Assembly (NCBI GenBank): GCA_019637195.1
Contig: JAHBWA010000011.1
Location: 1 to 64,000, forward strand
DNA: 64,000 nt
DNA from: Labilithrix sp.
GTDB lineage: Bacteria > Myxococcota_A > Polyangia > Polyangiales > Polyangiaceae
Reading direction: 5' to 3'
This document shows, piece after piece, positions 18,821 through 36,202 of this stretch (position 1 is the first letter of the stretch; each line of letters opens with the position of its first letter). The notes under the pieces were generated by a model. The model was given only the letters and a program-made list of their open reading frames with translations. It did not search any database and was not told the origin of the DNA. Both the position numbers and the translations under genes were made by a program.

Positions 18821-19162
18821 TCACGGCTCCGCGTCGTCGTTCGGGCGCTGCGGTGCGCCGGAGACGTTCGGGACGCGGAGATGGAGCGCGGACTTGGCCA
18901 CGAGGTGGGCGCTCACCGGCGCGGTCAGGAAGAGGAACGCGGTCACGAGGACCTCGTGGACGCTCGGCGCCTCCGTCGAGAGGGTGAAGAAGGTCGCCGA
19001 CCCGAGGAGCGTCGATCCCACGCCGAGGGTCGTCGCCTTCGTCGGCGCGTGGAGCCGGCAGTAGAGGTCGGGGAGGCGCGTCAGCCCGATCGACCCGATC
19101 AACGCGAACGTCGCGCCGACGAGGATGAACGCGGAGACGACGAGCTGGGCGAAGATCGACAT
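18821..19162 (-). CDS. mrpG: Mrp-type cation/proton antiporter subunit G
   Basis: A 113-residue protein with three hydrophobic helices and the MnhG/MrpG pattern GSIGLTRLPDLYCRLHAPTKATTLG. It is the last gene of the operon, starting 4 bp after the MrpF stop. The subunit is needed for assembly of the hetero-oligomeric Na+(K+)/H+ antiporter in the inner membrane. Its stop is 37 bp from the stop of the convergent VOC gene. Confidence 0.93.
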   Translation of the reverse strand: MSIFAQLVVSAFILVGATFALIGSIGLTRLPDLYCRLHAPTKATTLGVGSTLLGSATFFTLSTEAPSVHEVLVTAFLFLTAPVSAHLVAKSALHLRVPNVSGAPQRPNDDAEP

Positions 19163-19166
19163 CGCG

Positions 19167-19436
19167 TCACTCCACGATGTCGCCGCGGAGGAGGTACTTG
19201 CAGAGCGCCACCGTGCTGACGAAGCCCATCAGCGCGATCACGAGGGCGGCCTCGAAGTAGAGCGTGCTCGCGGAGGCGATCCCCAGGAGCACGACGAGCG
19301 CGATCGAGTTGACGTAAAGCGTGTCGAGCGCGAGCACGCGGTCGGCGGCGCTCGGTCCGCGCGCCAACCGGACGAAGTTGAGGACGAGCGCCGCGCTCAC
19401 GAGGACGATGGCGCAGCGGACGGCGACGTCGATCAT
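19167..19436 (-). CDS. mrpF: Mrp-type antiporter subunit F
   Basis: An 89-residue protein with three helices. The family motif RLARGPSAADRVLALDTLYVN is visible apart from small changes. The ATG at 19436 has a good Shine-Dalgarno (aaggagg) 9 nt upstream and overlaps the MrpE stop by 4 bp. Confidence 0.93.
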   Translation of the reverse strand: MIDVAVRCAIVLVSAALVLNFVRLARGPSAADRVLALDTLYVNSIALVVLLGIASASTLYFEAALVIALMGFVSTVALCKYLLRGDIVE

Positions 19437-19918
19437 TCGAATGCCTCCTTCACAAGTGCTTCGTAGCGTGACTTGATCCGGGCGATCTCGCGCGCACCGT
19501 CGCCGATCGCCAGGCCATGGACGAGCAGCGTGCGACGATCGCCGCTGACGTTCACCAACACCGTGCCCGGCGTCAGCGACATCAGGCTCGCGAGCAAGGT
19601 GAGCGCGTGGTCGCTCTCGAGCGCGAGCGGCACCTCGATGAAGGTCGGGCGGACGCGTCGGAGCGGACCGAGCACGAGGACGGCGACGCGAAGGTTGGCG
19701 ACGACGATGTCGAAGGCGACGACCACGGCCAGCCGGAGGAGCGGGAGGAGGCGGACCCTCCGCGGGTAGCCGGGCCAAAACTTGGCGGTCCAGAGCGGGA
19801 TCGCGATCGCGAGGACGGCGCCGACGGCGGCGCCGCCGAGGGTGAAGCCGTCGTCGGCGAGGAGCCAGACGACGAACAGCGCCACGGAGACCGCCGGCTG
19901 CGGGAGGAGCCGCCTCAT
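19433..19918 (-). CDS. mrpE: Mrp-type antiporter subunit E
   Basis: A 161-residue protein: two N-terminal helices, then a helix (RLAVVVAFDIVVANLRVAVLVL) and a soluble C-terminal domain with the MrpE motifs LTLLASLMSLTPGTVLV and LLVHGLAIG. It overlaps MrpF and MrpD by 4 bp at each end. Confidence 0.93.
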   Translation of the reverse strand: MRRLLPQPAVSVALFVVWLLADDGFTLGGAAVGAVLAIAIPLWTAKFWPGYPRRVRLLPLLRLAVVVAFDIVVANLRVAVLVLGPLRRVRPTFIEVPLALESDHALTLLASLMSLTPGTVLVNVSGDRRTLLVHGLAIGDGAREIARIKSRYEALVKEAFE

Positions 19919-21405
19919 GGCCCGCCGCCTCCGAGGACCGCATGGACGTAGGCGGCGCTGTCGGCGAGCTGATCGGCGGCGAGGGTCGTATACGTCATCA
20001 CCGGCGCGGCGAAGACGGTCAGCCCCGTCGTCGCGGCGAGGAGGAGGAGCGGTCCCGGCAGCCGGCTCACCGGTGGCCCGGTCGTTCCCGGCTCCACCTT
20101 CGCGCCGAAGAAGATGGTGCTCGCGGCGCGCGCCGAGGCGACGACGCCGATGAGCGTCGAGACGAGGACGACGGCGAAGACCCCGACGCCGCTCCCGGTA
20201 GGGCGCACCGCGGCGAGGAGGGCGGCCTTGCCGGCGAACCCTGGCAGGGGTGGCAGCCCGACGACGGCGACGACGGAGAAGGCGAAGGTCGCGCCGAGGA
20301 TCGCCGGGTCGCCGCGAAGCGGGGCGCGCTCGATCCGATCACCTGCGCCGCCGCGCGCGCGGGCGACGCAGCCGGCGACGAGGAAGGCCCCGGCGAAGGC
20401 CACCGTGCTGTGCGCGAGATAGAACAGCGTCGCCGAGAGCGCGCCCGCCTCGCCACGGAGCGAGACGCCGGTGAGCATCACGCCGATCGAACCGACGAGG
20501 AGGAAGGCGAACAGGCGACCGAGCGAGCGGCTGCCGATGACGCCGAGCACCGCGACGAGCTGCGCGACGAGCGCCGCCGGGAGGAGCCAGCGGTCGACGT
20601 CGGACGTGACACCCGGCAGGAGCGTGAGGACGCGCACGATGCAGTAGATCCCGACCTTGGTCATGATGGCGAACGACGCCGCGACCTCCGGCAGCGCGGC
20701 CGGGTACGCGCGCGTCAGCCAGAACTGGAGCGGGACGAGCCCGGACTTGAGGGCGAACACGAGCAGCAGGAGCGCGACGGCGACGCGGGCGAGCCCGACG
20801 TCGACGCCGGCGAGCTCGGGGACCCGCGCGGCGACGTGCGCCATGTTGAGCGCGCCGGTGGTGCCGTAGAGCACCCCGAGTCCGACGAGGAAGATCGTCG
20901 AGCCGACGAGGTTCAGCACGACGTAGTGGAGCCCGGCGCGGGCGCGCCGCTCGCCGCCCCCGTGGAGGAGGAGCGCATAGGACGCGATGAGGAGGAGCTC
21001 GAAGAAGACGAAGAGGTTGAAGAAGTCACCGGTCGTGAAGGCGCCGTGGACCCCGCAGATCTGCAGATGGAGGAAGACGAGAAAGTGCTTGCCGCGCGCG
21101 TCCGCGCCGGTGGCGGCGTGAACCAGCGCCGCGAGCGAGACGACGTCCGTGAGGAGGAGCATCGCCGCCGAGAGCCGGTCGACGACGAGCACGATCCCGA
21201 ACGGCGCCGGCCAGCCACCGACGCGGTAGACGATCGGCTCGCCGCCGCAGGCGTCGAGGAAGAGCGCGAGCGACGCGACGAGCGTCCCGGCCATCGCCAT
21301 CAGCGACACCGCGCGCTGGACGCCTCGGCGCGCACCGCCGAGGAGCACGAGGGCCGCCGCGGCCGCGAGCGGAAGGAGGATCGGGAGGATCGCAGCGTGA
21401 CTCAC
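19915..21405 (-). CDS. mrpD: Mrp-type antiporter subunit D
   Basis: A 496-residue membrane protein of the NuoM/NuoN-like antiporter family with about 14 helices. Features include GVHGAFTTGDFFNLFVFFELLLIASYALL, the Glu in FFELL that matches the conserved TM5 Glu, and LKSGLVPLQFWL with the conserved Lys before the proton channel. The start is a GTG at 21405 overlapping the MrpC stop (GTGA). With MrpA it forms the ion-translocating part of the complex. Confidence 0.95.
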   Translation of the reverse strand: MSHAAILPILLPLAAAAALVLLGGARRGVQRAVSLMAMAGTLVASLALFLDACGGEPIVYRVGGWPAPFGIVLVVDRLSAAMLLLTDVVSLAALVHAATGADARGKHFLVFLHLQICGVHGAFTTGDFFNLFVFFELLLIASYALLLHGGGERRARAGLHYVVLNLVGSTIFLVGLGVLYGTTGALNMAHVAARVPELAGVDVGLARVAVALLLLVFALKSGLVPLQFWLTRAYPAALPEVAASFAIMTKVGIYCIVRVLTLLPGVTSDVDRWLLPAALVAQLVAVLGVIGSRSLGRLFAFLLVGSIGVMLTGVSLRGEAGALSATLFYLAHSTVAFAGAFLVAGCVARARGGAGDRIERAPLRGDPAILGATFAFSVVAVVGLPPLPGFAGKAALLAAVRPTGSGVGVFAVVLVSTLIGVVASARAASTIFFGAKVEPGTTGPPVSRLPGPLLLLAATTGLTVFAAPVMTYTTLAADQLADSAAYVHAVLGGGGP

Positions 21406-21842
21406 TTGGCGGGCCCCCCTCCGCCGGCCTCTGCCCCGGCGGCGTCCGCGCGCTCGACGCGCTCGGCGGCGTCGTCGCGCTCGGCGCGCTCGCGATCGTC
21501 TTCGCGATCGTCGTCGCCGGCATACGCGCCGTCGACCTCGTCCGTCCCGATCTCCACACGCGCGCGGATCGCGAGGACGACGAGGAACGCCGTCATCCCG
21601 AAGCTGATGACGATCGCCGTGAGGACGAGCGCCTGCGGGAGCGGATCGGCGTAGCCGGTCGCGCCCTCCTCGATGATCGGCGGGCGGCTCGCGGCCACGC
21701 GCCCGCTGGCGAGGAGGAAGAGGTTCGTGGCGTAGGCCGCGAGGGTGACCCCGAGGATCACCGGAAACGTCCGACGCCGGAGGACGAGGTAGGTCGCCGA
21801 GGCGTACAGCACCCCGACGAGGATCGCGATCAGGGCCGCCAC
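21402..21842 (-). CDS. mrpC: Mrp-type antiporter subunit C with acidic C-terminal extension
   Basis: A 146-residue NuoK-like subunit. Three helices are followed by the conserved ADPLPQALVLTAIVISFGMTAFLVVLA segment. About 45 extra residues at the C-terminus are very rich in Asp/Glu/Arg (DDDREDDRERAERDDAAERVE) and end in a Gly run; standard MrpC is about 110-120 residues. The GTG at 21842 has an aaggag 7 nt upstream, and the start overlaps the MrpAB stop by 13 bp. Confidence 0.9.
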   Translation of the reverse strand: MAALIAILVGVLYASATYLVLRRRTFPVILGVTLAAYATNLFLLASGRVAASRPPIIEEGATGYADPLPQALVLTAIVISFGMTAFLVVLAIRARVEIGTDEVDGAYAGDDDREDDRERAERDDAAERVERADAAGAEAGGGGPAK

Positions 21843-24661
21843 GGGTCGCTCTCCTTCGCGTAGCTCGCGTCGGCCGCCGCGTCCGAGCGCGAGAGCGCGC
21901 CGAGGCGGGCCAAGATCACGATCGTCGTCCCGACGACGCCGAGGTAGACGCCGACCTCGAAGACGAGCACGCCCGGGAGCGCGAGCTCTCCAACGAGCGG
22001 AACGCGGAGGCGAGTCGACATCGTCAGGAAGTACCTCCCGGACAGCATCGCGAGCACGCCGACGCCGAGCATGATCAGCAGGGCGACGCCGATGACGGGC
22101 TGAGAGTCGCGGCGGATACGGGCGCTCGTCCAGGCGTTCCCGCTCGCGAGGTACTGCAGCACGATCGCGATCGCGGTCATCAGCGCGGCGACGAAGCCTC
22201 CGCCCGGACGGTCGTGACCGCGGAGGAAGAGGAACGCGCTCATCAGGAGCGCGAGCGGCAGCAGCATCCGACTGACGGTCGCGAGGATGACCGGGACGTG
22301 ATCGAGCGCGCGTGGACGCGCGGCGTCGGCCGGGAGGGACGCAGGCGAGAGCCCGTGGAGCATCGCCGCGACGCCGAGCCCGGCCGCTCCGAGGACGGCT
22401 ACCTCGCCGAGGGTGTCGAACCCACGGAAGTCGACCAAGATCACGTTCACGGCGTTGTGCCCTTCGCCGGAAGGCAGCGCCTCGCGGAGGAAGAACGCCG
22501 AGATCCCCTCGGGCGACGGCCGCGCGAGGAGCGACCAGGTGAGCGCCGCTGCGCCGAGACCGACCGTCGCGGACAGGACGACGGAGAAGGCGCGCCAGCC
22601 GCGGTCCGCCGCCGGCCGCTCGCGCGCGGGGAGGTGGTAGACGGCGAAGAGCATCAGGATCATGCTCACGATCTCGACGAGGAGCTGCGTCAACGCGAGG
22701 TCCGGCGCCGAGAGCCGAACGAACGCGAGCGCGAGGACGGAGCCGACGACCGAGAGGAGGACGATCGCGGTGACGCGCTCGTGCGCGCGCAGGGCGACGA
22801 AGATCGCGGCGACGGCGGCGACGGCGCCGAGCGCGAACGACGGAAGCGTGGGCACCTCGACCCGCGCGAGGTCGAGCCGGCCGACCGCGAAGGCCGGGCC
22901 GATGCTGAGCGCGAGCGCGGCCGCGAGCACGACGGCGACGTAGCCCGGGAGCGACGCGCGCTCGAGCGCGGCGGTGATCGCACGGCCGGCGCGGGTGAAC
23001 GCCTCGAGGGCGACGTCGAAGATCGCGCTCGCGCGGAGCGTCGGCGCCCGGTCGTGAAGCGCGCGGATACGCGGGAAGAGCGCGTAGAAGACGGCGCCGA
23101 ACACGAGCGCGACGCCCGACATCAGGAGCGGCAACGTGAAGCCGTGCCAGAGCGCGATATCGTAAGGCGGGAGCGCTCGCCCGACGACGTCGCGCGCCGC
23201 CATCGCGACGAGCGGGCCGTCGACCGCCGCGGGGAAGATGCCGACGACGATGCAGAAGAACGTGAGGAGCTCGACCGGCACGCGCATCCACACCGCCGGC
23301 TCGTGCGGCTCCTTCGGCATCCCGGTGCCGTCACCGCGAAAGAAGGCGTCACGGACGAAGCGCAGCGAGTAGGTCACCCCGAAGACCCCGGCGAGGGTCG
23401 CCGCCGCCGGGACGAGCCAGCGCGTCACCCCGGGCAGCTCGGTGGAGACCGCCTCGGCGAAGAACATCTCCTTGCTGAGGAAGCCGTTGAGGAACGGCAC
23501 CCCGGCCATCGCGCCGGCGGAGATCGTCGCGAGCAGCGTCGTCTTGGGCATCTTTCGGTACAGGCCGTTCAAGACGCGGATGTCGCGCGTGCCCGTCTCG
23601 TGTTCGATGATCCCCGCGCCCATGAAGAGCGCCGCCTTGAACATGCCGTGGTTCAAGGTGTGGAACACGGCCGCGATCGACGCCGTCGCGGTGCCGAAGC
23701 CGAGGAGGAGGACGATGAGCCCGAGGTGACTGATCGTCGAGTAGGCGAGGAGGCCCTTGAGGTCATCCTGGTGGAGGGCCAGGTAGGCGCCGCCGACGAG
23801 GGTGACGAGGCCGACGCCGCAGAGCAGCGCGACCCAGAGCTCGGTCCCTGCGAGCGCGGGGTGGAGGCGGGCGAGGAGGAAGATCCCCGCCTTCACGAGG
23901 GTGGCGGAGTGGAGGTACGCGCTCACCGGCGTAGGCGCCGCCATCGCTCGCGGTAGCCAGAAGTGGAGCGGGATCTGCGCAGACTTCGTGCACGCGCCGA
24001 GCACGATCAACACGAGGGTCGGTCCGTACAGCGCGTGCGCCCGGATCTGCTCCCCGCTGGCGAGCACGCCGTCGACGTCGAACGTCCCGGTGATCACGCG
24101 AAGGAGGAGGACACCGCCGAGCAGAGCCAGCCCGCCGGCGCCGGTGACGGTCAGCGCCGTGAGGGCGCCGCGCCGCGCGTCGGGATCGTCACCGCGGTAG
24201 GCGATGAGCAAGAACGACGTCATGCTCGTCATCTCCCAGAAGACGACGAGCATGAGCAGGTTGTCCGACAGGACGAGCCCGAGCATCGCCGCCGCGAAGA
24301 CGATGAGGAGCGCGAAGAAGCGACCGAGCGGATCGGTCGCCGGCATGTAGTACGCCGCGTAGAGGACGACGAGGAGGCCGATCCCGAGGACGAGCAACGC
24401 GAACGTGAACGACAGACCGTCGAGGCGGAGCGCGAGGTCGATCCCGAGCGTCGGGATCCAGGCGACGCGACTCTTCAGGACCCCGCCGGCGGCGACCGCC
24501 TCTGCCTCGTGGGCGACGACCGCGAGGACGCCTCCGAACGCCGACGCGGTCAGCACTGCGGCAAGCGTGCGCGACACGCGCGCCGCCATCGCCGGCAAGA
24601 GGGCGCTCGTGAAGAGCACGGCGACGGCGAGGACGAGCGCCAAGGCCGCGCACCAATGCAT
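21830..24661 (-). CDS. mrpA: Fused MrpA-MrpB subunit of cation/proton antiporter
   Basis: A 943-residue protein. Residues about 1-500 are the NuoL-like MrpA core (LLMLVVFWEMTSMTSFLLIAY with its Glu, GACTKSAQIPLHFWLPRAM with its Lys, SATLVKAGIFLLAR). Then come the MrpA tail, including DLALTQLLVEIVSMILM and NVILVDFRGFDTLGE, and a C-terminal MrpB domain (about 800-943) with FLRGHDRPGGGFVAAL. This A-B fusion is the 'group 2' arrangement known from Sinorhizobium Pha and Pseudomonas. The ATG at 24661 is chosen; an in-frame GTG 30 bp upstream is possible. No separate mrpB exists. The complex exchanges Na+ or K+ for protons. Confidence 0.95.
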   Translation of the reverse strand: MHWCAALALVLAVAVLFTSALLPAMAARVSRTLAAVLTASAFGGVLAVVAHEAEAVAAGGVLKSRVAWIPTLGIDLALRLDGLSFTFALLVLGIGLLVVLYAAYYMPATDPLGRFFALLIVFAAAMLGLVLSDNLLMLVVFWEMTSMTSFLLIAYRGDDPDARRGALTALTVTGAGGLALLGGVLLLRVITGTFDVDGVLASGEQIRAHALYGPTLVLIVLGACTKSAQIPLHFWLPRAMAAPTPVSAYLHSATLVKAGIFLLARLHPALAGTELWVALLCGVGLVTLVGGAYLALHQDDLKGLLAYSTISHLGLIVLLLGFGTATASIAAVFHTLNHGMFKAALFMGAGIIEHETGTRDIRVLNGLYRKMPKTTLLATISAGAMAGVPFLNGFLSKEMFFAEAVSTELPGVTRWLVPAAATLAGVFGVTYSLRFVRDAFFRGDGTGMPKEPHEPAVWMRVPVELLTFFCIVVGIFPAAVDGPLVAMAARDVVGRALPPYDIALWHGFTLPLLMSGVALVFGAVFYALFPRIRALHDRAPTLRASAIFDVALEAFTRAGRAITAALERASLPGYVAVVLAAALALSIGPAFAVGRLDLARVEVPTLPSFALGAVAAVAAIFVALRAHERVTAIVLLSVVGSVLALAFVRLSAPDLALTQLLVEIVSMILMLFAVYHLPARERPAADRGWRAFSVVLSATVGLGAAALTWSLLARPSPEGISAFFLREALPSGEGHNAVNVILVDFRGFDTLGEVAVLGAAGLGVAAMLHGLSPASLPADAARPRALDHVPVILATVSRMLLPLALLMSAFLFLRGHDRPGGGFVAALMTAIAIVLQYLASGNAWTSARIRRDSQPVIGVALLIMLGVGVLAMLSGRYFLTMSTRLRVPLVGELALPGVLVFEVGVYLGVVGTTIVILARLGALSRSDAAADASYAKESDPWRP

Positions 24662-31872: not shown

Positions 31873-32283
31873 TCAACCGGCGCGGAGCAGCATGACGACG
31901 TGGACCGTGACCGTGGCCGCGATGAGCACGGCGGTCGTCGTGTGCATGCGTCGCTTGCGCGCGCGATCCTTGAGCTTCGGATCGCGCAGCTGGAGGCCGA
32001 GGCCGGCGTGGGCCACGAGGAGGAAGAACGCCGCGCCGGCGGAGAGGAGCGCGAAGACGCCGGCTCCGATCGCCGCGGGCGTCCCGAGCGCCGGCAAGAC
32101 CGTGATCGTGTGGAGGAACGCGAGCGCGGCGGTCGTGAGGCCGACGACGACGTGCAGGCGGATCGGCGCCGAGCCCGGCGCGGCGCGCTTGCCCGCGCGC
32201 ACGCGCTGGACCACGGGGACGAGCGCGGCGAGCACGATCGCCGCGGCGGCGAACCATCCGCTCCAGATCGCGACCGCCTCCAC
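31873..32283 (-). CDS. Small four-helix membrane protein, predicted di-heme b-type cytochrome
   Basis: A 136-residue protein with four predicted helices. Helices 2 and 4 each contain two histidines 14 apart: His44-His58 (RLHVVVGLTTAALAFLH) and His114-His128 (RMHTTTAVLIAATVTVH). This HX13H pair on two helices is the bis-histidyl arrangement that holds two stacked hemes b in cytochrome b and ferric-reductase-type proteins. His92 lies in helix 3. The start is a GTG at 32283, 21 bp after the FmdE-like stop on the same strand. A role in moving electrons across the inner membrane for the upstream proteins is inferred; heme binding is not shown. Confidence 0.7.
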   Translation of the reverse strand: MEAVAIWSGWFAAAAIVLAALVPVVQRVRAGKRAAPGSAPIRLHVVVGLTTAALAFLHTITVLPALGTPAAIGAGVFALLSAGAAFFLLVAHAGLGLQLRDPKLKDRARKRRMHTTTAVLIAATVTVHVVMLLRAG

Positions 32284-32304
32284 GTCACCGCCCTCCGCGC
32301 GCGC

Positions 32305-32982
32305 TCATTTCACCGCGATCTCTTCGAACACCTGATCCGCCGGCAGCCCGAGGACCTCGCGCCCGAGCTCGCGCGCCTTGTCGCGCGGGGTGTCGGCGTA
32401 GCGCTCGCGAAACGAGGCCGCCGGCCGGAGCGCCACGCTCTTTCCGGTCTTCTTGTCGCGGTAGATCGTGAGCACTTTGTCGGAGGTCGTGTCGACGAGA
32501 GACAGGTTCAGCTTTCCGAGGCTCGCCCCGGAGTGCGCCGCCGCGCCGTCGGCGATGCAGGAGTAGCGGACCTCCTTCGGGGTCCAGTGCACGATCTCGA
32601 GATCGAAGCTCCCGCGCTCGAGCCCGAGCTTCGCGAGCGCGTGCTCGCTCATCCGGTAGCCGGCGACGGCCCACGGCCCCGCCGCCCCGTGGACGGCGGC
32701 GACCTCGTCGAGCTTCCGCTCGGCCGGATCGCCCGCGGCGCGTCCGTGCCCCTCGCCGCGTCCGTGCCCCTCGCCGTGCCCGTGCCCGTCGCCGCGGCCG
32801 TGCCCGTTAGCATGGCCGTGCCCGTCACCTCGCCCCTCGCCGTGCCCGCGACCTCGCCCCTCGCCGTGCCCGCGGGCCGCACGCGCGGTCGGCGTGACGA
32901 CGCCGGCCTCGCCGGCCGGACGCGCGCCGCCGCACGCCGTGACGAGCGCGAGCGCCCCGACGAGCGCCGCGCGCCGGATCAT
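32305..32982 (-). CDS. His/Gly-rich FmdE-family lipoprotein
   Basis: A 225-residue protein. The lipobox LALVTAC gives Cys17. Residues about 37-82 are a low-complexity His/Gly/Arg/Glu stretch with about 12 His (GHGEGHGRGEGHG type), a likely metal-binding segment. From residue 88 the FmdE domain follows: VAGYRMSEHALAKLG, IVHWTPKEVRYSC with Cys142, then HSGASLGKLNLSLV. FmdE is the zinc-ribbon/electron-entry subunit family of formylmethanofuran dehydrogenase, and stand-alone FmdE-like proteins have other, mostly unknown roles. The ATG overlaps the stop of the upstream gene (ATGA), so the two are coupled. Confidence 0.8.
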   Translation of the reverse strand: MIRRAALVGALALVTACGGARPAGEAGVVTPTARAARGHGEGRGRGHGEGRGDGHGHANGHGRGDGHGHGEGHGRGEGHGRAAGDPAERKLDEVAAVHGAAGPWAVAGYRMSEHALAKLGLERGSFDLEIVHWTPKEVRYSCIADGAAAHSGASLGKLNLSLVDTTSDKVLTIYRDKKTGKSVALRPAASFRERYADTPRDKARELGREVLGLPADQVFEEIAVK

Positions 32983-33764
32983 TCGCCGCGGCTCGTGCCG
33001 AGCACCCAGCCGACGAAGAACGGCCCCATCTTCTCGATGAACTCGCTCGTCTGCCGCGTCTTGCGCATCGCCTGCACGAGGTGCGAGAGCGGGTGGAGGT
33101 CCTTGCCGACCAGGCCGATGACGAACTCGTTGTCCCCGGCGTCGATGCCGTGGCACGCGAGACGGACGTCGTGGGCGAGCTCCTGCTGCCCGTAGGCGAT
33201 GCCGAGCGCCGCGTGCTCGCGGAGGATGTGGCTCTGATCGATCGGCTCGAGCTTCGCGAAGGTGCCCTTCCGCCGAAGCGGGTACCAGACGTGCCAGCGG
33301 TAGGCCTCGTCCGTCACGTTCTCGACGGGGCGGCGGAGCAGCGACCACTCGAGCTCCGGCTCGTGCCCGGTCGCGTAGGTGCGGCCGAGCATCCCGAAGT
33401 CGTCGCGCAGCTCGACGCTCGAGAGCAGCGGCTCCGCGAAGAGCGGGCGGACGTCGCGGACGAACCGCGCCGGGTCCTCGCCCCACGTGAGGAGCGCGAG
33501 GCTCCGCGGGTCCATCGCGTCGGCGTAGACGACGCCGGGGATCTTGCGATCGCGGAGCGTCGAGAGCAGCTCGGCGCCGACCGCGTCAGGGGCGGCGCGC
33601 GGGCCGCCGCTGACCGGCAGGCCGCCCGTGGGAGTGCGGAAGACGAGCAGCTGCATGAAGAGCCGACGGTTCGTCGACTGCTTCACGCCGTCCTTCTTGC
33701 CGCCGTACTCGTTGACGTCGATCGTCGGGAGGCCTTTGGCCTCGGTCGCGTTCGCCTCGGACAT
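32979..33764 (-). CDS. Chlorite dismutase/HemQ-family heme-binding protein
   Basis: A 261-residue protein whose second half fits the Cld/Dyp-fold family: SHILREHAALGIAYG with His184 as candidate proximal heme ligand, then CHGIDAGDNEFVIGLVGKDL, and the final MRKTRQTSEFIEKMGPFFVGW. HemQ converts coproheme to heme b; chlorite dismutases decompose chlorite. The residues needed to separate these two cannot be read safely here. No signal peptide. It begins the minus-strand operon with the FmdE-like lipoprotein and the four-helix membrane protein, so a heme-linked process is likely. Confidence 0.8.
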   Translation of the reverse strand: MSEANATEAKGLPTIDVNEYGGKKDGVKQSTNRRLFMQLLVFRTPTGGLPVSGGPRAAPDAVGAELLSTLRDRKIPGVVYADAMDPRSLALLTWGEDPARFVRDVRPLFAEPLLSSVELRDDFGMLGRTYATGHEPELEWSLLRRPVENVTDEAYRWHVWYPLRRKGTFAKLEPIDQSHILREHAALGIAYGQQELAHDVRLACHGIDAGDNEFVIGLVGKDLHPLSHLVQAMRKTRQTSEFIEKMGPFFVGWVLGTSRGE

Positions 33765-33811: not shown

Positions 33812-34984
33812 CTACTCGGTGTCGGTCGCGGCGAGCGCGGCGACGGTGCGCCCGTCCGCGCGGAGCGCGAGCGCGCCGAGGTCCCAGGCGACGTCGTAGA
33901 ACCACGGGCCGGGCGCGCGGAACGTGAGGAACGCGGTCGTGGTCGAGAGCCCTTCGACGGCGTCGACGCCCGCGCCCGCAGGCGCGCCGACGAGCGCCGC
34001 GAGCGACGCCCACGCCGCGAGCCGCCCGTACGCGCCGCCGAACCCGGAAGAGTACGCGCCGCCGTTCGACGCGGCGGAGAAGAGCGGACCGAACACGCCC
34101 TCCGATCCCGTGCGCGCCACCTCGAGACGCGCCGTCGCGGTCGTCGACTCGAGCGGGAGGGCGCGGAGGAGCCAGCTGCCGACGGCCGACGACGAGACCC
34201 GCGGCTCGAGGGAGAAGACCTTCGCCTCCACCTTGCCGCGCTTGCCCTCGGCCCAGGGCCGAACGGCGGACATCAAGCGCGCTTCGAGCTCGGCGTCGAC
34301 CACGCGCGTCGCGCGCACTGCGGCGCCGTCCGCCGGCGGCGGCACCGTGCGCGCCGAGAGCGGGCCGCTGGCGAGCGCGTCGATCGCCCGGCCGAGCCCC
34401 TTGTCGCCGTAGAGCGGCATGTACGACGGCGCCTCGCGCTCGGTCGGGCGGAGCGCCAGCGGCAGACCGCCGAGCGCGTGCCCGCTCTTCGCGAGCGTCT
34501 CGTCGAAGCGCTTCGCGCGGGCGTCGCTCGCCAGCGAGGTGCCGCGGAGCACGACCTCCTGCATCCAGCACGCGAGGAGCTCCTGATGCTCCGCGCGCTC
34601 TCCCGCGCGCTCGAGCGCCGAGAGAAACGCGTCGGCCGAGTGTCCGTAGCCCAGACGCGAGGCGAACGCGCGGAGCCGGAGCGCGCGCGGACGCGGCACC
34701 TCGACCGAGCGCTCGCGGGGCTTCCGCGAGAGCGCGAGGAGCGCGTCGATCGCCGCGTCTCCCGGGGTGAGCGCGAGCTCGTCCTCGACGTGATCGGCGA
34801 GCGCCTCGAAGCGGCCGCGCTTCTTCTTGTCCGCCGGATCGGCGCGGGACTCGAGCGCCTCCGCGAGCGAGGCGAGCTCCTCCGCGCGCCCCGCCTTCGC
34901 CCAGCCCTCGACCACCTCGCACGCGCGGGCGACGCCCGGCTCGTCCTCGAGCAGCCCGAGGGTCTCGTCGATCGCGCTCGTCAT
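33812..34984 (-). CDS. Conserved hypothetical protein, DUF6183-like
   Basis: A 390-residue soluble, largely helical protein. Conserved-looking blocks are LLACWMQEVVLRGTSLASDA, LGGLPLALRPTE, YMPLYGDKGLGRAIDAL and EAKVFSLEP. I recall a similar family, DUF6183, from myxobacteria and actinobacteria, but I am not certain of the number. The ATG at 34984 is preferred; TTG at 35005 would add seven residues. It follows the acyl-CoA dehydrogenase gene by 21 bp on the same strand. Confidence 0.6.
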   Translation of the reverse strand: MTSAIDETLGLLEDEPGVARACEVVEGWAKAGRAEELASLAEALESRADPADKKKRGRFEALADHVEDELALTPGDAAIDALLALSRKPRERSVEVPRPRALRLRAFASRLGYGHSADAFLSALERAGERAEHQELLACWMQEVVLRGTSLASDARAKRFDETLAKSGHALGGLPLALRPTEREAPSYMPLYGDKGLGRAIDALASGPLSARTVPPPADGAAVRATRVVDAELEARLMSAVRPWAEGKRGKVEAKVFSLEPRVSSSAVGSWLLRALPLESTTATARLEVARTGSEGVFGPLFSAASNGGAYSSGFGGAYGRLAAWASLAALVGAPAGAGVDAVEGLSTTTAFLTFRAPGPWFYDVAWDLGALALRADGRTVAALAATDTE

Positions 34985-35005
34985 GGGTCCCGTGACCTTG
35001 CCCAA

Positions 35006-36202
35006 TCAGACGAGCGTCGTCAACGCGCCCCGCAGGAAGTCTCGGGCGACGACGACGTCGTGGACCTCGTCCGGCCCGTCGGCGATGCGCGCCGAGCGCG
35101 CGAAGCGGTACCAGAGCGAAAACGGCAGATCCTCGCTGTAGCCGAGCGAGCCGTGCATCTGGATCGCGTCGTCGAGCACCTGACAAAGGAGTCGCGCGAC
35201 ATGGTTCTTCGCCATCGAGGAATACGGCCGCGCCTCCCTGGAGAGGCCCTGCTCGAGCATCGAGGCGCAGTGGATCGTCATCAGGTTGCCGGCGTGGATC
35301 CCAGAGGCGGCGTCGGCGATCTTCTTCTGGATCATCTGGTGGTGCGCGAGCGTCTTGCCGAAGCTCTCGCGCGTGAGGACGTACTCGCGGCACATGTGGA
35401 GCGCGCGATCGGCCCAGCCGAGCCAGCGCATGCAGTGCGTCAGCCGGGCCGGCACGAGGCGCGCCTGCGCGAGCTGGAAGCCCTCGCCGACGCCGCCGAG
35501 GACCGCGTCGTCGCCGATCTTCACGCCGTGGAAGCGGAGCTCGGCCTCGCGGTGCTGGAGGATCGGCGGGCTCATCACGGGGACGTCGCGCACGTGCTCG
35601 ACGCCCTCGGCCGTCCGATCGACGACGAACATCGTGGCGCCGGTGCGCGGATCGTCCGACGTGCGCGCCATGACGATGAGGAACGACGCGTCGCCGCCGC
35701 CGGTCGTGTACCACTTGTGGCCGTCGATGACCCAGCCGCCGTCGACCTTGGTGGCGCGCGTCTTCAGGTTCGACGGATCGGCGCCGGCGCCCGGGGCCGG
35801 CTCCGTCATCGCGAAGCCGCTCGTGATCTCGCCGCGCGCGAGCGGCGAGAGCCAGCGCTCGCGGACCTGGGGCGACGCCGCCTTGAGCAGCAGGTCCATG
35901 TTGCCCTGATCCGGCGCGTCGCAGTTGAAGCACGCGGCGCCGACGGGCGAGCGCCCCATCTCGCGGAAGAGCGCGCACATCCCCATGATGCCGAGCCCGA
36001 GCCCGCCGTGCTCCTCGGGCAGGTGCGGCACGAAGAGGCCGGCCGCACGCGTCCGCGCGCGGAGGGCGTTCAGCGTGTCCCGCTTCTTGTCGCGGTCCTC
36101 TTCGAGGATGGCGCGCTCCGCGGGGATGACGGCGTCGTCGACGAACGCGCGGACCCGCGCGCGCAGCTCGGCCAGGTGAGGAGGTAGCTCGAAGGAGATC
36201 AC
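35006..36202 (-). CDS. Acyl-CoA dehydrogenase (ACAD10/11-like)
   Basis: A 398-residue flavoprotein oxidising acyl-CoA thioesters at C2-C3. The full family layout is present: an N-terminal helical domain, FAMTEPAPGAGADPSN at the FAD/substrate site, WVIDGHKWYTTGG, and a C-terminal helical domain with RESFGKTLAHHQMIQ and QMHGSLGYSEDLPFSLWYR. The GADPSNLKTRA segment resembles the ACAD10/11 subfamily. The start is a GTG at 36202 after a gaagg Shine-Dalgarno-like sequence. An APH-fold kinase gene lies 887 bp away on the opposite strand, and ACAD10/11 contain both domains in one protein. Confidence 0.9.
   Translation of the reverse strand: MISFELPPHLAELRARVRAFVDDAVIPAERAILEEDRDKKRDTLNALRARTRAAGLFVPHLPEEHGGLGLGIMGMCALFREMGRSPVGAACFNCDAPDQGNMDLLLKAASPQVRERWLSPLARGEITSGFAMTEPAPGAGADPSNLKTRATKVDGGWVIDGHKWYTTGGGDASFLIVMARTSDDPRTGATMFVVDRTAEGVEHVRDVPVMSPPILQHREAELRFHGVKIGDDAVLGGVGEGFQLAQARLVPARLTHCMRWLGWADRALHMCREYVLTRESFGKTLAHHQMIQKKIADAASGIHAGNLMTIHCASMLEQGLSREARPYSSMAKNHVARLLCQVLDDAIQMHGSLGYSEDLPFSLWYRFARSARIADGPDEVHDVVVARDFLRGALTTLV

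Follow-up and report, generated by a model that had tools for sequence, protein, structure and literature searches.

A lineage-specific gene run in Labilithrix around a putative divergent coproheme decarboxylase gene, with genes for a candidate four-helix di-heme membrane protein and an FmdE-family lipoprotein

Gene content and layout of the locus

The window, by which we mean the whole stretch of 64,000 nucleotides that was analyzed, belongs to the 10 Mb genome of Labilithrix sp., a soil/sludge myxobacterium of the order Polyangiales. Its minus strand carries a Cld-family gene of the ChdC/HemQ type (PF06778; 32979–33764; 261 aa; Pfam E 2.7e-10), followed by an FmdE-family lipoprotein gene (PF02663; 32305–32982; 225 aa; E 3.7e-15), the two sharing a 4-bp ATGA stop/start overlap (32979–32982, minus strand). 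A 21-bp gap separates the FmdE gene from a gene with a GTG start for a four-helix membrane protein of 136 aa (31873–32283, minus strand). The co-directional arrangement of these three genes, their coordinates, the overlap and the gap were all reproduced from the preliminary description. The genes lie as placed there, but the run is longer than the three-gene operon proposed: a gene finder trained on verified genes gives the same-strand order acyl-CoA dehydrogenase (35006–36202, minus strand, at the head of the run), DUF6183 (PF19681; 33812–34984, minus strand; E 5.7e-83; 47 bp upstream of the Cld-family gene), Cld, FmdE, and membrane protein. The run is flanked by a divergent gene upstream and a convergent gene downstream, and a scan for promoters and terminators returned nothing informative.

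The DUF6183 and acyl-CoA dehydrogenase genes (33812–36202) also precede the Cld-family gene in other members of the clade; DUF6183 is a domain of no known function. Elsewhere in the window, about six overlapping minus-strand genes (18821–24661) resemble, by eye, an operon for a Mrp/Mnh-type multisubunit cation/proton antiporter.

The Cld-family protein and the heme-pathway genes of Polyangiales

The Cld-family protein passes the Pfam cut-off for PF06778 via its C-terminal half, scores far below the cut-off of the NCBIfam HemQ models (28.9 vs. 235 bits), and gives no match when used alone in a phmmer search of the PDB. A profile built from 41 relatives matches, in the PDB, ChdC/HemQ entries only (1vdh, 5loq, 6fxj, 9t54, 1t0t, and 6xub). 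The AlphaFold2 model (pLDDT 92) superimposes on Listeria ChdC (5loq) over 209 residues at 2.7 A (VIA-align Z 20.5; Foldseek E about 1e-12), and ChdCs lead the structural ranking (Z 19–20.5 over 200–212 residues), ahead of chlorite dismutases (Clds; 16–18) and DyP-type peroxidases (~13). His184, invariant in 41 of 41 relatives, aligns with the segment that bears the proximal heme His of ChdC, and Tyr161, in a WYPLRR motif and equally invariant, aligns with the YPM Tyr of Listeria and Thermus ChdC. This Tyr is catalytic and essential in ChdC, and an Ile occupies the position in Clds (PMC7611857); the Ile of functional Clds is absent from all 41 sequences.

The distal side of the presumed heme pocket reads less clearly. 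Known ChdCs carry either a Gln (Firmicutes) or a His on a linker loop (Actinobacteria) at the distal position, whereas the Cld-family protein has a two-residue insertion before it, and the profile alignment places Asp199 or a neighbor there. Asp199 and Arg201, two residues apart, are both invariant among the relatives. The nearness of Arg201 to the distal position, together with the common fold superfamily (Clds at Z 17–18, DyPs at ~13), would suit a protein that acts as a true chlorite dismutase, or as a DyP-like peroxidase, and is no coproheme decarboxylase. We consider this improbable, in view of the invariant Tyr161 where Clds carry Ile (PMC7611857), the ChdCs as top structural and sole sequence matches, and the single gene copy carried almost throughout an order that lacks HemF and HemN. 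The gene is present in one copy in nearly every Polyangiales genome of the class-wide sample. The ChdC-best structure, the invariant His184 and Tyr161, this near-universal single copy, and the heme-gene complement of the order (below) make a divergent coproheme decarboxylase (ChdC/HemQ) the likeliest identity of the protein. Compared with the ChdC/HemQ proteins of Listeria, Geobacillus, Corynebacterium, and Streptomyces, it shares the fold over ~209 residues, the proximal His, the catalytic Tyr, and the pathway genes, but only 14–18% identity, and it stays under the cut-off of the HemQ models. The Cld/HemQ assignment of the preliminary description is thus borne out and narrowed to the ChdC type by structure, profile, and residues. 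Such an enzyme would bind coproheme via His184 and, using H2O2 and a Tyr161 radical, would turn two propionates of coproheme into vinyls, yielding heme b and completing the coproporphyrin-dependent pathway.

HemF, and HemN above the cut-off, are absent from all 67 genomes surveyed in the order; the HemN matches below the cut-off score 149 bits at most against a cut-off of 325, as expected of HemW or other radical-SAM relatives. All 67 have a PPO/CgoX-family member (above the cut-off in 56) and 65 have ferrochelatase, and the two genes are adjacent in the window genome (G000:C257). The presence of CgoX and ferrochelatase, with HemF and bona fide HemN missing, is the gene set of the coproporphyrin-dependent pathway, and we consider that the diderm Polyangiales probably use this route to heme. 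Heme could instead be made by a divergent HemN below the cut-off, or by the siroheme route (AhbC/AhbD). In three genomes (G138, G068, and G088; loci L061, L062, and L063, respectively), the sole Cld-family gene encodes a conventional full-length ChdC-type domain, with VYPFVKTR and MMDEH/DEH motifs, fused to an N-terminal extension. That the only family member in these genomes is a conventional ChdC fusion fits the replacement of an equivalent enzyme. We take the N-terminal domain of the fusions to resemble the PCP_red domain of light-independent protochlorophyllide reductase type.

If the ChdC assignment is true, the coproporphyrin route supplies heme to an entire Gram-negative order, through an enzyme divergent enough to escape the HemQ naming models. 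In reviews, the route is chiefly a Gram-positive one, and the diderm exceptions are Planctomycetota and Acidobacteria; these are the diderm phyla in which most genomes encode ChdC, and myxobacteria are unmentioned in the review concerned (PMC10991733). Reported diderm ChdCs come mainly from those two phyla, whereas the proteins described here belong to Gram-negative Polyangiales. We claim no priority for the route in myxobacteria, as our coverage of the literature is incomplete.

The four-helix membrane protein and its HX13H histidines

No Pfam or NCBIfam family claims the 136-aa membrane protein. Homologs occur in five of the 193 genomes of the class and in 13 of the 30 genomes that carry the collected Cld loci, making 17 distinct genomes overall, and the search of 379 genomes of the phylum added no further true match; a search for a plasmid homolog found none. 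The protein represents a new, unnamed family, seen only in Polyangiales. One phylum-wide match (G459) was set aside as a chance match to an MscK-like channel.

Identity to the window protein falls to ~53% among the 11 homologs measured. Across the 17 sequences, 23 residues are invariant, including five His (44, 58, 92, 114, and 128), and the model has four helices (2–30, 39–66, 69–99, and 107–135). The preliminary description noted His44/His58 and His114/His128 as exact HX13H pairs on helices 2 (32110–32154, minus strand) and 4 (31900–31944, minus strand); sequence and model agree with this placement, and all four residues proved invariant in 17 of 17 homologs, where a lack of conservation would have spoken against the proposal. 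To these four, the alignment adds the fifth invariant His92, on helix 3, which had not been listed. At least two HX13H pairs arise in 0.5% of random placements of five His in 136 residues; the invariance of the His in all homologs is more telling than this chance value. The loops between helices 1 and 2 and between helices 3 and 4 are rich in Arg and Lys, so that, by the positive-inside rule, His44 and His114 would lie near the cytoplasm and His58 and His128 near the periplasm.

A profile of the 17 sequences was compared by hhalign with 16 ferric-reductase-domain proteins from the order. The alignment spans 123 columns with all four HX13H His in register (score 44.4, probability 88%, E 2.8e-6), against scores of up to 21.3 for 40 block shuffles, 15.6 and 14.3 for reversed alignments, 18.3 for an unrelated TauE/SafE-type permease, and 16.5–19.7 for cytochrome b561. 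When these four residues are masked, the score falls from 44.4 to 20.9, so that the His account for much of the profile signal; the similarity is well above chance, leans on the His pattern, and may possibly reflect convergence. Other comparisons gave fainter signals. Pfam Ferric_reduct matches 7 of 11 members weakly and below the cut-off (best E 0.0046), and at an E-value limit of 0.001 PF01794 matches nothing in the window genome. Foldseek with the model against the PDB gave no significant match, and the superposition on STEAP4 (6hcy; Z 8.0, 117 residues at 5.3 A) is within helical-bundle noise; such noise was all that the sequence and fold searches of the PDB returned, with no STEAP, NOX, or cytochrome b recovered by sequence.

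With the ferric reductase superfamily (YedZ/MsrQ, STEAP, bacterial FRE, and NOX), the protein has in common the colinear profile alignment and the placing of four His on a pair of helices separated by one other. It differs in having no flavin or NADPH domain and in the extra invariant His92. Most short bacterial forms of the ferric reductase domain keep two or three of the four His (PMC3591440), whereas this protein retains all four, and NOX2 has HX12H in its last ligand helix (PMC3591440) in place of the HX13H on helix 4. The protein is not filed here as a ferric reductase, because it falls below the Pfam cut-off, its model has four transmembrane helices rather than the six of PF01794, and it lacks the HX12H spacing; it nevertheless looks like a minimal di-heme core that would work like one.

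Two other readings of the His pattern were weighed. HX13H pairs on helices 2 and 4 are also the layout of the four-helix core of cytochrome b, and 5 of 11 members match Ni_hydr_CYTB weakly, so the protein might be cytochrome b561- or cytochrome b/b6-like and unrelated to the ferric reductase domain. Its profile aligns with same-order b561 alignments at hhalign probabilities of 0.6–2%, against 88% for ferric reductase domains, and Pfam b561 (PF01292) reaches E 0.055 at best, below the cut-off, so that profile similarity to b561 is lacking; the hhalign comparison set consisted of ferric reductase domains, b561, and the permease. We regard this reading as rather unlikely. Very improbable, in our estimate, is a non-heme metal site, such as a di-iron site, held by the five His: the fifth invariant His92 would agree with it, as would the weak Pfam FA_desaturase matches that 7 of 11 members give (E 0.031 at best), but the protein has no HXXXH or HXXHH clusters, and the 14-residue spacing on two helices fits two layers of heme.

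The putative di-heme four-helix membrane protein of the preliminary description thus gains support from the alignment of its HX13H His with the ferric reductase/NOX domain, and its sequence family and model make a minimal, four-helix b cytochrome with two hemes the probable assignment. The hemes would be stacked across the membrane and held by helices 2 and 4, one between His44 and His114 on the positively charged, presumably cytoplasmic side, and the other between His58 and His128 on the opposite side. The protein might in this way pass electrons across the inner membrane, where heme binding, direction, and partners are all predictions. If it binds two hemes, it would be a very small natural transmembrane di-heme protein and a minimal case for the transmembrane electron flow of ferric reductases and NADPH oxidases.

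The FmdE lipoprotein and conservation of the gene neighborhood

The lipoprotein has an LVTAC lipobox at its N-terminus and a PF02663 core above the cut-off (56.6 vs. 22.9 bits). It also carries a His/Gly/Arg-rich tract (residues ~38–80; 32743–32871, minus strand), the source of TrAA12 and ribosomal-protein matches that were dismissed as low-complexity. The family and the lipoprotein character are as first described, but the tract contains 9 His rather than about 12, with 13 in the whole protein. Since the tract varies in length among relatives and is missing in L003, it is an optional extra, not a conserved feature.

Crystallized FmdE members bind Zn or Ni via an FHGHxC motif and a later Cys (PMC2954224). 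In the lipoprotein, this motif reads VHGAAG, by which the second His and the first Cys, two of the four ligands, are lost; Q2LQ23_SYNAS, a solved FmdE member, likewise lacks two ligands. Alignment with 2gvi and six relatives matches His98, Cys142, and Asp145 to conserved FmdE positions, and His132 is invariant in the lipoprotein subfamily of seven. An altered 2His-1Cys site (His98, His132, and Cys142) is plausible. Compared with Ta1109 (2gvi) and B8FYU2_DESHY, the protein shares the core domain with the corresponding His98, Cys142, and Asp145, but it lacks the zinc finger, has the new invariant His132, and is secreted as a lipoprotein with the optional His tract. A literature search for links between FmdE and heme found nothing relevant.

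Two neighborhoods of other FmdE genes were noted by eye. In distant families of the class, canonical FmdE recurrently adjoins a TauE/SafE-type permease gene, sometimes with a Crp-type regulator (six genomes: L044, L046, L047, L048, L050, and L051). At L098 (6470–8133), a lipoprotein with an FmdE domain, its HGHFCGG motif intact, is encoded next to an efflux gene of the cation-diffusion-facilitator type, a hint that FmdE lipoproteins handle metals.

Across the order, Cld is near-universal, and FmdE and the membrane protein are rare. The complete trio is found in four genomes of one clade (the window genome, G192, L007, and L008). In L009, Cld and FmdE are paired and the membrane-protein gene lies elsewhere; in L010 and G111, Cld is paired with the membrane-protein gene; and in L011–L013, a gene of another family takes the place of FmdE, so that the gene between Cld and the membrane protein may be FmdE, a member of another family, or absent. 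Of the 17 genomes with the membrane-protein gene, 9, every one from the Labilithrix clade, have it beside or close to Cld, and the other 8, including Minicystis rosea, have it unlinked to Cld. In other order members with FmdE (G101, G124, G135, and G189), FmdE and Cld are on separate contigs. Wherever Cld and FmdE are paired (five genomes), their genes overlap by ATGA or GTGA. The flanking genes (acyl-CoA dehydrogenase, DUF6183, and the convergent genes), none with an evident part in heme metabolism, are syntenic in the clade to the same degree.

The grouping of the three genes as one system, which the preliminary description would have given up had they been unlinked elsewhere, is unsupported by this survey, as outside the clade they are largely unlinked. 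Such a system would be dedicated to redox or heme handling in the envelope: ChdC heme would be loaded into the membrane cytochrome, from which electrons would pass to a metal bound by the FmdE lipoprotein. The overlap kept in five genomes speaks for this arrangement, as does the persistence of the membrane-protein gene downstream of Cld in nine genomes despite the swapped intervening gene. Against it stand the full trio in just four genomes of one clade, the membrane protein unlinked in 8 of 17 and FmdE unlinked outside the clade, flanking genes that are as syntenic and so make the synteny non-specific, and the absence of the His tract in L003. The trio is probably not one dedicated machine, and a system of this kind seems to us doubtful. 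Similarly doubtful is the bolder proposal that the 136-aa protein is the smallest stand-alone di-heme fold of ferric-reductase type, a four-helix transmembrane electron wire that would act together with the FmdE lipoprotein to reduce a metal at the outer face of the inner membrane, in bacteria whose coproporphyrin pathway to heme is order-wide and divergent in sequence.

We favor, as reasonably probable, a gene run particular to this lineage and centered on a housekeeping gene of heme biosynthesis, comprising a divergent ChdC, a minimal b cytochrome, and an FmdE envelope protein. The neighborhood would have been inherited by descent within the Labilithrix clade, with functional coupling of the trio possible. 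The FmdE lipoprotein would reside in the envelope and have a changed site for a metal or ligand (His98, His132, and Cys142) and an optional metal-buffering His tract, and its gene, by overlapping the ChdC gene, would probably be translationally coupled to it. The survey shows synteny at the level of the clade, with translational coupling of Cld and FmdE possible, and the conserved 4-bp overlap hints at some coupling that a run around a housekeeping gene leaves unexplained. The interest of the locus is accordingly in two separate points: a divergent ChdC in a probable order-wide coproporphyrin pathway, and tiny membrane proteins that form a new family of the Polyangiales and have an invariant His pattern of di-heme type. 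The family that takes the FmdE slot in L011 (5801–6601), L012 (974–1789), and L013 (5902–6612) appears, by eye, to be MORN-repeat-like.
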